NCBI GenBank assembly: GCA_004322215.1
Contig: SCSM01000018.1
Span: 1-36,303, forward strand
Source: Bacteroidota bacterium
Lineage (GTDB): Bacteria > Bacteroidota > Ignavibacteria > Kapaibacteriales > UBA2268
Length of the DNA: 36,303 nucleotides
Direction of reading: 5' to 3'
The notes under the pieces are model-generated. The model had not been told where the DNA came from and searched no databases. It saw only the letters and a list, made by a program, of their open reading frames with translations. Positions within the stretch are counted from its first letter, which is position 1; every line of letters begins with the position of its first letter. This document shows, piece after piece, positions 8,704 to 13,481 of the stretch. Made by a program: the position numbers and the translations under genes.

Positions 8704-10725
8704 ATGAAAAAGCTGGTCATTTTTTTTCTCTTCTTAAGTTTAGTTCAAATCAATAATATTTATTCTCAATGGGAAGAATGTAATAATGGATTACCAGGAA
8801 AACAAATATTTTGTATAGAAAAATACAAAAATACATTATTAGCAGCTGTTGATAATGGCGTTTATTTATATGATAGCAGTGGTTTATTATGGAATTACAT
8901 TGGCTTAAATGGTATTCATATTTCAAATATTAAAGTGGTCAATTCAAGAATTTTTGTAGGATCCTACAATGGATTATACTTCTGCCCAGATATAGATTCC
9001 CAATGGATAAATTTAACACCTAATAGATTTTTTGGGATTAGTTTTGATATTAAAGACTCAAATATTTATGCTGCATCAGGTTATCAGGCAATTTTGTCAA
9101 CAAATTTTGGAAAAGATTGGAGGAGAATTGATTCAGGATTGAATTATGCATCTGTTTATTGTATTGCAGCTCAAGATTCTGATATTTATGTTGGAACCTC
9201 GACAGGTTTATACAGAACAAATGACTTTGGAAAAAATTGGTTAGATTTAGGATTATCAAACGAAATGATTTTTAATATCATCATTAATGAATCATATATT
9301 ATAGCACGAAATATTAATGACACTTTTTTTATCTCATCTAATTTTGGAACAAGTTGGTACAAATTAAATGTTGGTATTAATAATATTAAAATTAATAGTA
9401 TTACAATAAAAAATAGTGTTTTTTATGTAAGTACAGATAGTGCAGGCATATTTATTTCAGATAATTTTGGGCAAAACTGGATAAACAAAGATTATGGACT
9501 TAGAAATAAGTCAACTCGCAAAATAATTGTTAATGATTCCAATTTTTATTTAGGAACTGATTTCGGTGTAATGCTGTATTCGAAATATGATTCTTCATGG
9601 TCTTACATTAATTCTGGTTTGACTAACACATGGGTAAAAAATATTATCAAAAAAAATGATTATATTTTTGCTGAAACATTTGATGCATTACTTATATCCA
9701 ATGATAAAGCATCACATTGGATTGAGACCAATTGGTATATTACAAAAAGTCAAATATATTCTTTAGCTGTTTTTGACTCCACACTTTTTGTTGGTACCTG
9801 GGAAAATGGCTTATATCAGTCAAATGATAATGGAACTAACTGGGATATTTCTAGCAAAGATCTAGCAAAACAAACAATAGATTTAATAAAAAAAAATAAT
9901 TCAAAATTATTTATCAGTACTCGGGATAAAGGATTATTTGAATCTACAAATAATGGAATTAATTGGGAAAAAGTAAATTCTGGTCTTACTGATTCTTATG
10001 TTAGTAATTTATTTTTTGATGATTCAATTATTTTAGCATGTACAAGCTCTGGATTATATAAATCAACTAATAATGGCATGGATTGGGAATTTAAGCAAAA
10101 AGGATTATTCAAATATTTATCCGTTATTACAAAAATTGATAATATATACTTAGGTATTTCACAAGACGCTATAATATTTCATTCTTCAGATAATGGTGAT
10201 AGTTGGGTTGAGGTAAATTCTGATTTAAAAACTAAGGATATTGAATGTTTAACGACTTATAAAAGAAATATTTTTATCGGTACATATGGTGATGGTGTTT
10301 TTTTATCAACTAATAATGGAATTAATTGGATTGAATTAAATGTTGGATTAAAAAATAAATATATACTTACTTTATCTATAATTGATTCAAATATTTTTGC
10401 AGGAACAGATGGTCGAGGTATATATAAAGAAAAATTGTCAAATCTCAACTTAAATTTGGTTGAAAATAATCCAATTAATTCAGGTAATAAAATTGTCATT
10501 ACACCCAATCCTTCATTCGATAAAATAACAATTCGAAGAGAAAATACCAAACAAGCAATACTAATCATTACAAATCTAATTGGAGAGATGATTTTTCAAA
10601 ATCACTTTTATTCGGGTGATAATGAAAAGATAATTCCTACAGCAGAATTGGCATTTGGTCCATATTTCATTAAAATAATTTATCACGACGGAAAAGTTGA
10701 ATTTGGAAATTTTATAAAATTTTAA
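8704..10725 (+). CDS. Secreted Asp-box beta-propeller protein with T9SS sorting domain
   Basis: 673 residues. A signal peptide (about 1-21, cut before QWEEC) is followed by about ten repeats of roughly 45 residues carrying Asp-box motifs of the type S-T-N-x-G-x-x-W (for example STNFGKDW, SDNFGQNW, SNDNGTNW, STNNGINW), as in BNR/sortilin/Ycf48-like propellers. The last 75 or so residues form a T9SS type-A sorting domain (ITPNPSFDKITI ... GPYFIKI), so the protein should cross the outer membrane and be released or anchored on the surface. The ligand is unknown. It has a paralogue at 28965-31115. It ends eight bases before a palindrome that marks the edge of the duplicated ompA 3' end. Confidence 0.9.
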   Translation: MKKLVIFFLFLSLVQINNIYSQWEECNNGLPGKQIFCIEKYKNTLLAAVDNGVYLYDSSGLLWNYIGLNGIHISNIKVVNSRIFVGSYNGLYFCPDIDSQWINLTPNRFFGISFDIKDSNIYAASGYQAILSTNFGKDWRRIDSGLNYASVYCIAAQDSDIYVGTSTGLYRTNDFGKNWLDLGLSNEMIFNIIINESYIIARNINDTFFISSNFGTSWYKLNVGINNIKINSITIKNSVFYVSTDSAGIFISDNFGQNWINKDYGLRNKSTRKIIVNDSNFYLGTDFGVMLYSKYDSSWSYINSGLTNTWVKNIIKKNDYIFAETFDALLISNDKASHWIETNWYITKSQIYSLAVFDSTLFVGTWENGLYQSNDNGTNWDISSKDLAKQTIDLIKKNNSKLFISTRDKGLFESTNNGINWEKVNSGLTDSYVSNLFFDDSIILACTSSGLYKSTNNGMDWEFKQKGLFKYLSVITKIDNIYLGISQDAIIFHSSDNGDSWVEVNSDLKTKDIECLTTYKRNIFIGTYGDGVFLSTNNGINWIELNVGLKNKYILTLSIIDSNIFAGTDGRGIYKEKLSNLNLNLVENNPINSGNKIVITPNPSFDKITIRRENTKQAILIITNLIGEMIFQNHFYSGDNEKIIPTAELAFGPYFIKIIYHDGKVEFGNFIKF

Positions 10726-10732
10726 TTAAGAT

Positions 10733-10760
10733 GTAGGGGCAATTCGTGAATTGCCCCTAC
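10733..10760. repeat. Perfect 13-bp palindrome (REP-like), distal copy
   Basis: The arms GTAGGGGCAATTC (10733-10745) and GAATTGCCCCTAC (10748-10760) pair perfectly around a two-base centre. It lies ten bases beyond the stop codon of the duplicated ompA-like tail (10771-10836), just as a related hairpin lies 13 bases beyond the real ompA-like stop. Similar GTAGGGGCAATTC palindromes are dispersed intergenic repeats in many bacteria. It also ends the converging propeller gene. No long T run follows on either strand, so a terminator role is possible but unproven. Confidence 0.8.
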
Positions 10761-10770
10761 AAAACATATT

Positions 10771-10836
10771 CTACTTAAACTCTATCTGTGTTTCCACTGT
10801 AACATCCACACGTCGGCAATAGAACTTGCCTTCGGA
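10771..10836 (-). pseudogene. Orphan copy of the 3' end of the OmpA-like gene
   Basis: Read on the minus strand these 22 codons end in TAG and give SEGKFYCRRVDVTVETQIEF plus K. The intact gene at 11475 ends PEGRYYCRRVDVTVETPIEF plus K. My alignment counts 58 of 66 identical bases: four differences are silent, four change a residue (P/Q, Y/F, R/K, P/S), and there is no gap. Similarity stops at about 10837, 24 bases before the end of the brnA gene. The conservative differences suggest this was once the end of a working paralogue rather than a fresh duplication. It has no start codon and no upstream OmpA domain here. Confidence 0.85.
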
Positions 10837-10860
10837 TGAATAGTAATTTATATTAATAGA

Positions 10861-11091
10861 CTATACTGCTCTTTGCCTTGCTTTTGGGAATGCCTCGATT
10901 ACTGCCCTCAAAACGTTGTTAACATCTTCAGAAGTTTTAAAATATTTATGGACTTCATCTGTTAATTTAACATATCCATTCTTCTCAGTTGCTTTTCGAG
11001 CATACTTTCCACGAACACCAGTTCTATAATCGAAATCATATTCTTTTCTCATAAAATCTTCAGGCACTTTCTTTTTATGCTGATTCTTCAT
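10861..11091 (-). CDS. brnA: BrnA-like antitoxin of a type II toxin-antitoxin pair
   Basis: I place the start at the ATG at 11091, giving 76 residues (MKNQHKKKVPEDFMRKEYDF ...). It is preceded by AAAGGA at a good distance, whereas the longer open frame from 11169 would overlap the toxin gene heavily and add a low-complexity Lys/Gln tail. The segment EDFMRKEYDFDYRTGVRGKY is typical of small antitoxins paired with BrnT. The C-terminal part (VKLTDEVHKYF...VNNVLRAVIEA) resembles the ribbon-helix-helix-like DNA-binding end that represses its own operon. The start overlaps the end of brnT by 17 bases, so translation is coupled. Confidence 0.85.
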   Translation of the reverse strand: MKNQHKKKVPEDFMRKEYDFDYRTGVRGKYARKATEKNGYVKLTDEVHKYFKTSEDVNNVLRAVIEAFPKARQRAV

Positions 11092-11356
11092 ATTTTTTCC
11101 TTTCTTTTTTTGTTGCTTCTCTTGCCGAAAATATTCTGATTTTATTGTTTCTTTCTGTAAAAAAAACAAGAATCAATCTATTCTTAACTGAATATCCTAT
11201 AGTAATTTCACGTTGTTCTTGAATGGAATGATCAGGATCTTGAAATGTAACAGATAATAAATCATCAAAAACTGTTGCTGCTTCTTCAAAACTAACATTA
11301 TGCTTTGCTAAATTTTTTTCTGATTCTTCTTCATCCCATTCAAAATTATATATCAC
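11075..11356 (-). CDS. brnT: BrnT-family ribonuclease toxin
   Basis: 93 residues, normal for BrnT, a RelE-fold mRNA-cleaving toxin. It has the family opening YNFEWDEEESEKNLAKHNVSF, FEEAATVFDD, the DPDHS motif, the ITIGYS strand and the end IRIFSAREATKKERKKYE. The start codon is GTG at 11356 with GAGG seven bases upstream. It is the first gene of the pair, as usual for brnTA, and starts 51 bases past the hairpin that follows the OmpA-like gene. The pair is bounded on both sides by copies of the ompA-like 3' end plus a palindrome, a sign that the module was inserted or left behind by recombination. Confidence 0.93.
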   Translation of the reverse strand: MIYNFEWDEEESEKNLAKHNVSFEEAATVFDDLLSVTFQDPDHSIQEQREITIGYSVKNRLILVFFTERNNKIRIFSAREATKKERKKYEESA

Positions 11357-11407
11357 ACTAACCTCAAAACGAAATAATCATTGCTAAATTATAAATTTTG
11401 TTAATAG

Positions 11408-11461
11408 AGGGGCAATTGACTTCGTCGGTCTTCGCTTCGCTCCGGCTCGTGGATTGCCCCT
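11408..11461. repeat. REP-like hairpin with GC-rich loop, proximal copy
   Basis: Nine-base arms AGGGGCAAT (11408-11416) and ATTGCCCCT (11453-11461) enclose 36 bases of about 64% G+C that contain several CTTCG units. The arms match the inner part of the palindrome at 10733-10760. The element begins 13 bases past the stop of the OmpA-like gene, the same relative place as the distal copy behind the duplicated tail. The long loop looks like an expansion or insertion within an originally simple palindrome. Confidence 0.75.
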
Positions 11462-11474
11462 AAACAAATACTTC

Positions 11475-13481
11475 CTATTTAAACTCTATCGGTGTCTCCA
11501 CTGTAACATCCACTCGACGGCAATAGTACCTGCCTTCGGGTGTATTATTGTCATATAGAAAATCGTTTGCCCCGATTCCGGTAATTGTTTTCTTATCCGA
11601 ATGAAGTGTGTTTGCTACTCCCTGAGCTCTCTGCTGAGACAATTTCAGATTATAATCCGCCTCACCCATCCTGTCTGTATAGCCCATTACTTTAACTTCG
11701 GATTCCGGTTTTATATAGCTCTGAATAATATCCAGTACCTTTGTATTGAAGTATGTCAGCTTAGTTTCATCGAATGTAAAAAGTATTAAGCTGAATCTGT
11801 CAATAAGTTTATCTGCAAATAATTCACGCCGTTTCTTTTGCAATGTCAATACTTCAACGGGTAAAGATTTCACCGGTGATTCATACATCTGCCCTGCATT
11901 ATCATGAACAATTAACTGGTAATCTAATGGGTCCTGTGTCTTAGGAATGCTCTTTTCATCGAGAGCAAACATCCAGTCGGTTTCTTTCGGCATTGCATTA
12001 TCACCCGAAAAAGTCTTCAAAGTTCTACCCTTTTGCTTTGCAAGCAATGTCCAGCTTCTCAAAGGAGCTTCTCCTTTATAATCAGTTTTGAATCGTACGG
12101 AAGGTGGATTTGTAACCCTCAATGTATCAACCGTAATTACGGGAGCTATAATTTCCATTGTATTAGACAGGATTTCAACTCTTCGGTTTTCCACCACACC
12201 ATCATCCTTCTGAGGATTTGATGGCTCATTAGGAAGATTTCTCGGATTCAAGCTGATTCTTTCAGGGGCAATACCCCATGTATCAACCAAATATGCTTTA
12301 ACTGCTTCTGCCCTTTTCTTCGATAGCTCGATATTATTTTTTTCTTTGCCTTCATTTGAATTGCATCCGTCGAGTACAATCTTAGCATCAGGATACATCA
12401 ACATTCTCTTTCCTACTATGTTCAGTAGATTGTAATAAGTTTCGAGTGCATTGAAATCATGAAACTGTTCCACCTTCGCTGTTGCTGCCTTTTCTTTAGT
12501 TATTCTTTTATACCTGTCAGGAATTACCGAAGAATTTTCATCAAAGAAAACATAAGTCAGGAGAGGGTGCATTCTGGTAGATAAAAACTCTTCAACTTTG
12601 ACCTGTACAACAGGAACTTCTGCACCCTCATGTGTAACACCGGTTGCATTAACATCAGCTAATAACACAGGCAGTTTCTTTTCAATAATTTTGCGTTCAA
12701 ATACCTCATCGGGAATTGGTGAATACTTCAAAGCCAAGCCGAATCTCAGCATATTAACTTTCCATATAGTATCTTTGATTTCAGGTAATAATCCATAAGA
12801 ATAAAAAATCTCCGGGGCAAGAATCCAGCTTTTCTTATAATTCAATGGAAATTCGTAACTCAGACCAATTAGTAATGATAATTTCATTGAAGAAAATTCA
12901 CTAATATCGCCTGTTGAATCTAACCTGATTCTCGATTTATTCTCAAATGTTCCAATTTCAGGAATTACCAATTGTTCCCATGAATGAAATTTCTTTCTCA
13001 AATTAAAAGGAATAAATTGAAATCCTGCATGTACCAGAAATTTGTCGAAAAACCTGTAATTTATTGTTGGCTCTAATGCAATATCGGAAAGCATTATCTC
13101 AAGTGTATGTCTCATTGTACCTAATGTATCCCTACCAAATATATTTACTATTTGATTTTCATCTCTTGTAAATTTTCCGTCTCTTGTTAAAAATCCTGCA
13201 TGGATTCCAAGAAATAAATCATCCTTTAATGGGTATTCAAAGAGCAATCCCGCCATTAAACCGGTTCCTGAACCGTCAACGTAATCCTGGCAGCATGATG
13301 CAACTCCCGGAAGAGTTTGGAACTCTGCCGGATGCTGATTCAAATTGAAACTCCCAAAAATACCGAATCTCATGTTATCGTGTTGTTTTTTCAATGGCTC
13401 AAGAGGATTATCCGAAATCTGTGAATAAACACTGCAATAGCACAATGTTATAAGCGAAAAATATAAGAACAGCTTTTTCAT
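11475..13481 (-). CDS. Outer-membrane protein with beta-barrel region and two OmpA-like domains
   Basis: 668 residues. A signal peptide (about 1-20, cut before QISD) precedes a barrel-like region (about 35-255), a first OmpA-like domain (about 305-440), an Ig-like spacer (about 441-555) and a second OmpA-like domain (about 560-668). The second keeps the peptidoglycan-binding pattern GYTDRMG...LSQQRA, with Asp603 and Arg618 at the positions that hold diaminopimelate in OmpA. The first reads GCNSNEG...LSKKRA and has Ser375 where that Asp belongs, so it may have lost binding. Its ATG overlaps the stop of the upstream T9SS cargo gene as ATGA, with GGAGGTGAG just before it, so the two are translationally coupled. 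A 66-base copy of its 3' end lies beyond the toxin-antitoxin pair. Confidence 0.9.
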   Translation of the reverse strand: MKKLFLYFSLITLCYCSVYSQISDNPLEPLKKQHDNMRFGIFGSFNLNQHPAEFQTLPGVASCCQDYVDGSGTGLMAGLLFEYPLKDDLFLGIHAGFLTRDGKFTRDENQIVNIFGRDTLGTMRHTLEIMLSDIALEPTINYRFFDKFLVHAGFQFIPFNLRKKFHSWEQLVIPEIGTFENKSRIRLDSTGDISEFSSMKLSLLIGLSYEFPLNYKKSWILAPEIFYSYGLLPEIKDTIWKVNMLRFGLALKYSPIPDEVFERKIIEKKLPVLLADVNATGVTHEGAEVPVVQVKVEEFLSTRMHPLLTYVFFDENSSVIPDRYKRITKEKAATAKVEQFHDFNALETYYNLLNIVGKRMLMYPDAKIVLDGCNSNEGKEKNNIELSKKRAEAVKAYLVDTWGIAPERISLNPRNLPNEPSNPQKDDGVVENRRVEILSNTMEIIAPVITVDTLRVTNPPSVRFKTDYKGEAPLRSWTLLAKQKGRTLKTFSGDNAMPKETDWMFALDEKSIPKTQDPLDYQLIVHDNAGQMYESPVKSLPVEVLTLQKKRRELFADKLIDRFSLILFTFDETKLTYFNTKVLDIIQSYIKPESEVKVMGYTDRMGEADYNLKLSQQRAQGVANTLHSDKKTITGIGANDFLYDNNTPEGRYYCRRVDVTVETPIEFK

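Follow-up and report, generated by a model that had tools for sequence, protein, structure and literature searches.

How a toxin–antitoxin (TA) pair came to lie between two copies of the end of one unrelated gene is the question raised by a locus in the 36,303-nucleotide stretch of Bacteroidota bacterium DNA analysed here (contig SCSM01000018.1 of assembly GCA_004322215.1; hereafter the window). To our knowledge, it is an open question in the field by what route small chromosomal TA pairs move in the absence of a transposase or integrase. Read on the minus strand, the locus consists of an ompA-like gene, a palindrome (palindrome 1), the toxin gene brnT, an open reading frame (ORF) at the position of brnA, an outer copy of the ompA tail and a second palindrome (palindrome 2). 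With modest confidence, we favour the reading that recombination anchored in the 3' end of the ompA-like gene itself placed the brnT/brnA pair behind that gene. Four observations bear on it: the layout itself, the finding of the same layout behind unrelated genes, three other loci with single-copy sites and a coding-like divergence of the pooled tail copies. The genomes compared were assemblies, metagenome-assembled genomes among them, and comprised the genome of the window (G000; 4.2 Mb in 47 contigs, completeness 96.7%), its congeners G001–G003 and further genomes of the order.

The host gene (positions 11475–13481, minus strand) encodes a 668-aa outer-membrane protein with a beta-barrel and an OmpA domain (Pfam PF00691, 3.6e-23; PF13568, 2.5e-7), and its orthologues in G001, G002 and G003 are 82–87% identical (n = 3). 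The 3' end of this intact gene and the first bases beyond it form the inner tail copy (11466–11545, minus strand). The outer copy (10762–10841, minus strand) comprises the last 22 codons of the ompA-like gene, the stop and the first bases beyond, the remainder of the gene being absent. The two make up a direct repeat of 80 nt with 84% identity; blastn aligned them over 99 nt (84%, E 5e-25, within a 3.2-kb stretch), and they differ at 8 of 68 aligned nt, stop included. The first-pass annotation, made from the sequence alone, had described a TA pair between two units of ompA tail plus palindrome; the direct repeat confirms that arrangement, and the 58 of 66 tail bases it had counted as shared are consistent with the 8 differences. 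No third copy of the tail was found in the G000 genome, so that the tail, which the annotation had considered might belong to an unrelated gene or be a common domain end, is confined there to the two copies at this locus.

The toxin gene brnT (11075–11356, minus strand; GTG start, 93 aa) encodes a full-length BrnT domain (PF04365, E 2.8e-28, positions 1–77 of 77). It overlaps by 17 nt a 76-aa ORF (10861–11091, minus strand) that no BrnA model in Pfam or NCBIfam matched; the name brnA for this candidate antitoxin follows from its position and from a like ORF in G003, compared by eye. The names OmpA, BrnT, NlpC/P60, glycosyltransferase (GT), epimerase, HicA, PIN and HTH_17 were assigned by family searches, as were the YgiT-type finger and GxxExxY. 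Presumptive names, given in part by eye, are used for rsmI (Pfam TP_methylase), hisH (Pfam GATase), tmk, OsmC, PrsW, nuoN, CrcB, DUF190, HEPN, the HicB partners and the BrnA-like ORFs.

Behind the orthologous ompA-like gene, the three congeners have differing arrangements. G003 carries a palindrome, a BrnA-like ORF, a second ompA tail, a second palindrome and then a helix-turn-helix (HTH)/PIN pair; no BrnT was found at this locus by family search, and the ORF (locus L047, 6033–6293) stands between the two tails as a solitary antitoxin. G002 carries a single tail and palindrome followed by an HTH/PIN pair, the families of which were assigned by search. G001 also has a single tail and palindrome, followed by a 70-aa hybrid ORF (L048, 6046–6279) and then by a BNR-repeat gene as in the window. 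The hybrid ORF starts like BrnA and ends like the HTH antitoxin of the PIN pair of G002 and G003, and it is likely the product of a deletion between two TA pairs. In the window the convergent BNR-repeat gene, which has a type IX secretion system (T9SS) tail, forms the outer boundary of the locus (8704–10725, plus strand). The joint between brnA and the outer tail lies at the identical place in G000 and G003. Because of this shared joint, the ompA insertion is older than the split between G000 and G003, and the locus has since lost parts in differing ways. Misassembly of the window locus was also considered and is unlikely, because the tail copies have diverged and the same joint is present in both genomes. 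The two tails within a genome (8 and 7 differences of 68 in G000 and G003) are closer to each other than the cross pairs are (11 and 11), which may hint at exchange between the tails within a genome; it is a hint only, because the numbers are small. The single tail of G002 fits removal of the cargo by tail–tail recombination, without proving it.

Sites without the insert were found at three other loci. At rsmI, G003 and G000 join the gene and its neighbour through one tail, and G001 holds a HicA pair between two tails. At the spot occupied by that HicA pair, G002 has a nucleotidyltransferase/HEPN-like pair, recognised by eye (L276, 2398–2957); to judge from these sequences, the same rsmI gene end receives different TA pairs. 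At hisH, the single tail of G003 runs directly into the flank that in G000 is found beyond the second tail, and the cargo has a match further downstream in G002. In G001 and G002 the OsmC terminator is present once and nothing matches the HicA stretch; in G000 two copies of the terminator enclose that stretch, and no OsmC match was found in G003. At these three sites, insertion was accompanied by the gain of a second gene end or terminator.

The same comparisons bear on the source of the second tail. The first-pass annotation had suggested that most of a second, tandem ompA paralogue was lost, and had called for relatives to be searched for an empty site or a full paralogue. The search gave single tails in G001 and G002 and no second ompA gene at the locus in any of the three congeners; loss of a paralogue is for that reason disfavoured, and the best-scoring ompA paralogue in G000 is only 37% identical (43% for the best partial match). 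More generally, a tandem second gene copy of which the TA pair replaced all but the 3' end would account for the coding-like divergence of the tails described below. Yet it would demand tandem copies of ompA, rsmI, hisH, GT, NlpC, epimerase and others, and rsmI and hisH are single, with contiguous flanks, in the congeners. We regard such a history as highly improbable.

To gauge recurrence, 67 places with BrnT (PF04365, E at most 1e-8), found in 27 of 123 genomes of the order, were all read with up to 1500 nt per side. Controls were 240 non-overlapping windows taken from 40 stretches, 20 kb each, of G000, G003 and G018; because these windows were not centred on inserts, recurrence cases lying within the control stretches were not counted there. 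Direct repeats flanking BrnT, one copy to either side, were present at 17 of the 67 places, as against 24 of 485 overlapping control windows from the BrnT stretches and 7 of the 240 non-overlapping ones. Under stricter limits the figures were 13 of 67 and 1 of 240 (Fisher 1e-8), and the sole strict control match had both copies inside one 719-aa ORF. Among the other control matches, one had neither copy in an ORF of at least 100 aa and the rest had both in such ORFs. Five of the 13 strict BrnT cases are host-gene ends, as judged by eye. Besides the window, these are the 3' end of a GT gene in G003, copied (108 nt, 83%) beyond a different BrnT pair; a gene tail with its 3' flank in G016 (162 nt); a 66-nt repeat at 98% on contig C30 of G012, where the insert also holds CrcB- and DUF190-like ORFs; and a gene 5' end on contig C44 of G012, repeated beside two TA-like units. 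The order at this last locus (L133, 7004–10084) is head fragment, nucleotidyltransferase plus DUF6883 gene, head fragment, brnT/brnA and intact gene.

HicA (PF07927) gave 132 matches in eight genomes, of which the 75 in G000–G003 were read. Strict flanking repeats were present at 4 of 75, compared with 1 of 240 controls (Fisher 0.012). Three of the four are host-gene ends: NlpC/P60 (333 nt including the 3' flank), rsmI (73 nt) and epimerase (176 nt). In the fourth, OsmC, and in one loose case, PrsW, the repeat lies in the gene's 3' flank. With gene ends only, 8 of 142 TA places contrast with 0 of 240 controls (Fisher 3e-4), the sorting having been done by eye, not blind, and the BrnT, HicA and control samples coming from different genome sets. 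An open scan of 836 kb, window included, added a hisH tail with a 452-aa ORF as cargo, a 774-aa gene with a T9SS tail and a 267-aa ORF as cargo, and repeats in intergenic sequence that surround a HicA pair in one case and a GxxExxY protein in another. The 267-aa ORF (L163, contig C34 of G003, 1930–2733) matched no family above cut-off in Pfam, NCBIfam or PADLOC. In G002 the end of the same GT gene as in G003 is copied beyond a YgiT-type ORF (66-nt match). In all, 11 coding gene-end duplications, the window included, surround small inserts (BrnT, HicA, YgiT-type and others), and their host genes are unrelated; a further 3 duplications of terminators or intergenic sequence do likewise. In the 11 coding cases a homologous anchor is present on one side, a gene tail or, in one case, a gene head. 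The distance from the last stop of the cargo to the outer tail is 2–25 nt in the window, G012 C30, G016 and the G003 GT case. On contig C5 of G000 the end of a 112-aa ORF recurs as a 65-nt copy at 83% identity (L156, 3475–3539 and 7984–8048), the two copies being 4.4 kb apart with several genes between them; this may be a further, larger gene-end case and was left out of the count.

Ten coding pairs, with the ompA pairs of G000 and G003 both among them, were used to examine the divergence of the tail copies. Together they hold 65 silent and 46 replacement changes (0.35 silent and 0.067 replacement differences per site, pS and pN), a pooled ratio of replacement to silent rates (dN/dS) of 0.15, and orthologous tails of the congeners give 0.06 (nine comparisons, three genes). 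Neutral relics were simulated with the gene branch at 0.06 and the relic at 1, at equal rates, with 400 runs for each of three transition biases. The observed silent share was 0.586; simulated relics reached at most 0.522, even at the strongest bias, and attained the observed value in 0 of 400 runs per bias. Whichever pair is omitted, the share is at least 0.537, the minimum being that without the NlpC pair, in which 32 residues are identical despite 16 base changes; the simulation figures are for the full set. In all ten outer tails the frame stays open until a stop that coincides with that of the gene or lies about one codon away from it. The differences between the copies are mostly silent, unlike those of a neutral relic, and the copies look like orthologous gene ends of two lineages. 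The simplest account of the pooled data would be that many copies diverged as working gene ends in separate lineages before they met, with some decay afterwards.

This conclusion must be weighed against one in which the TA pair inserted with a long target duplication, into a staggered or re-copied target, the tails having been identical at birth and the outer copy having decayed since. The single-copy sites at rsmI, hisH and the OsmC terminator suit that explanation, as do the youngest-looking coding pair, which is 98% identical (G012 C30), and the many replacement changes in the hisH, epimerase, 774-aa, GT and window ompA pairs. At hisH it is the outer copy that stands apart, as decay predicts: the inner tail differs from the congeners at 2–5 of 57 positions and from its own outer copy at 9, and the outer copy differs from all at 7–9, a pattern that, in terms of sequence distance, fits decay of the outer copy. 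The rival does not account for the pooled silent share, which exceeds that of neutral relics and stays at 0.537 without the NlpC pair, or for the open frames of the ten outer copies, although the GT relic of G002, omitted from the set, is not open in this way. We consider long target duplication a serious but improbable alternative.

Several further results tell against recombination anchored in the gene end. The window's own pair, with 4 silent and 5 replacement changes, is not clearly coding-like, and neither are the hisH, epimerase, 774-aa and GT pairs; two cases, the G002 GT relic (decayed, with a 2-nt gap) and the 5' end on G012 C44, were omitted from the dN/dS set. The rsmI copies differ at 10 of 75 positions, with neither nearer to another species by more than 1 base, and from the hisH and rsmI tail distances no donor is seen among the sampled genomes; nor was a donor with tail and cargo and a single tail found in them. 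Seven of the 13 strict BrnT matches are non-coding or dispersed repeats (3 in two copies only in the sequence examined, 4 in at least three copies) and one is a brnA relic. The loose HicA test was not significant (6 of 75 versus 7 of 240; Fisher p 0.088, about 0.09). No consistent microhomology or end motif was found at the joints, in 11 events with diverged copies. At ompA itself no clean empty site exists among the three congeners, G002 having one tail but also the HTH/PIN pair.

The part played by the palindromes can be assessed separately. Palindrome 2 (10732–10761), identified by repeat search and folding, has perfect 14-nt arms (10732–10745 and 10748–10761, 14 of 14 complementary) and an RNA fold of -20.9 kcal/mol (z -6.25). 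Palindrome 1 (about 11407–11461), of the GGGGCAAT type and found in the same way, has a longer loop and folds at -18.8 kcal/mol (z -1.75; an equally good fold in 12 of 200 shuffles). Its loop filler (11417–11448), about 30 nt and GC-rich, is absent from palindrome 2 and from the aligned palindromes of the congeners. The GGGGCAAT palindrome is dispersed, with 11 pattern matches in G000, palindrome 2 included, and 5 matches to Y1_Tnp are also present there. These two facts would suit repetitive extragenic palindromic (REP)-like elements moved by a Y1 transposase of the REP-associated tyrosine transposase (RAYT) type, the interval between two of them moving as a unit. Such movement has very little probability in our judgement: the duplicated part takes in coding sequence upstream of the palindrome, and no GGGGCAAT palindrome was found within 200 nt of the 13 other duplications checked, only the ompA locus of G000 and G003 having it. 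Because of that absence the palindrome is not needed for the layout; at ompA it seems to be part of the host gene's 3' flank, copied along with it. The first-pass annotation had allowed for arrival by recombination through either tails or palindromes; recurrence and the single-copy sites at rsmI, hisH and OsmC uphold the tails, and the palindromes fall away.

Recombination anchored in the gene's 3' end could have proceeded as follows. DNA of a related lineage carrying an ompA tail, palindrome and TA pair would recombine by homology with the resident tail, and the other joint, just beyond the antitoxin stop, would form illegitimately. A duplicated tail is what would be expected if a circularised fragment, its own ends joined illegitimately, entered the chromosome by a single crossover. 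The product would be gene, tail, cargo, second tail and old flank, the host gene remaining intact, and a later exchange between the tails could remove the cargo. The donor, the circle and the enzyme are parts of the model that we infer. In Escherichia coli, according to passages in PMC3240628, single crossovers of circularised fragments duplicated 109–950 bp of target. The same passages add a point against homology-facilitated illegitimate recombination proper, the usual outcome of which is a deletion instead of a duplication. The circularised form is the better fit, because a single crossover duplicates its target and the homology-facilitated form usually deletes.

The mechanism is a variation on known processes, namely insertion with long target duplication and single-crossover or homology-facilitated integration. 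Insertion of restriction-modification units with long target duplication was reportedly described by Nobusato et al. in 2000. Passages in citing papers tie long target duplication to restriction-modification (PMC3031569, PMC3874152, PMC2654758), and two of them put the target duplications at the order of 100 bp (PMC3031569, PMC3874152). As in those passages, a small selfish unit, direct repeats of about 100 bp and one-copy sites in relatives are seen here; unlike the restriction-modification units, the cargo here is TA pairs along with other small genes, most of the coding repeats represent 3' ends of genes, and the pooled copies differ like orthologues and not like one decayed copy. The events described in the cited part of PMC3240628 share one homologous side, one illegitimate joint and partial gene duplications of 109–950 bp, but they involve laboratory DNA, whereas those here are natural and carry TA cargo. 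In type VI secretion system (T6SS) effector–immunity arrays, as summarised in PMC5361080, modules stack behind a conserved region and displace old 3' ends, for which a like mechanism has been proposed. This stacking and the 3'-end displacement, also of Rhs genes, resemble the present layout, except that the host gene there is the toxin gene itself and here it is an unrelated gene left intact. In three other species, 10–18% of small variable segments are stated, in passages of PMC2884548, to be flanked by direct repeats, mostly shorter than 30 bp. Compared with the published cases, the cargo here is different, the host gene is spared and the copies are longer and more diverged. No report of TA pairs inserted with a duplicated gene tail appeared in the titles and abstract openings of the literature matches listed. 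An integron cassette array was considered for the window and set aside, since the window has two copies only, of mostly coding sequence, and no attC-type site.

Arrays of TA genes with repeated spacers were observed in two other genomes. On contig C77 of G018 (L279, 121–8239), 12 copies of a spacer of about 85 nt lie 0.14–1.15 kb apart, with TA-type genes in many of the intervals: BrnT/A, HicA twice, MazF/PemK, ParE, part of a PIN, a YafQ-like ORF below cut-off and two DUF3782-type ORFs, one assigned by family search and one by eye. The last spacer copy follows the stop of a beta-lactamase-fold gene at a distance of 4 nt. A coding origin of the spacer was considered, as a frame seemed open in some copies, and dropped, because the copies are shifted against each other. 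No attC-like folding was found in the 2 of 12 spacers folded, on both strands (z -0.24 to 0.72, no better than shuffles), and the one match from an Rfam scan of the array fell far short of its cut-off. On contig C21 of G012 (L280/L281, 19555–25591) a spacer of about 65 nt is matched 13 times, 12 of the matches sharing one orientation and the remaining one, which is short, having the opposite. TA-like genes lie between these spacers (HicA and BrnT by family search, others by eye), and the array adjoins a possible restriction-modification pair, recognised by eye.

The layout points to entry of TA pairs into chromosomes without a transposase and with the adjacent gene left unbroken. Many instances show the scar of the event, at genes that can be identified and for which insert-free relatives exist, and the movement of TA pairs by plain recombination thereby becomes testable. 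The scar itself, two gene ends differing mostly at silent sites, informs on the origin of the DNA, and it carries a warning for annotators: a short orphan gene end next to a TA pair can be such a scar. Tentatively, and with rather more doubt than belief, we suggest that TA pairs in this bacterial family may spread between species largely by such recombination anchored in gene tails: they would travel with the 3' end of the gene they follow and re-enter at the same gene, leaving it unbroken, with a second gene end as the scar, and repetition of the process could build arrays with the same spacer, such as those of about 12 spacers in G018 and G012.

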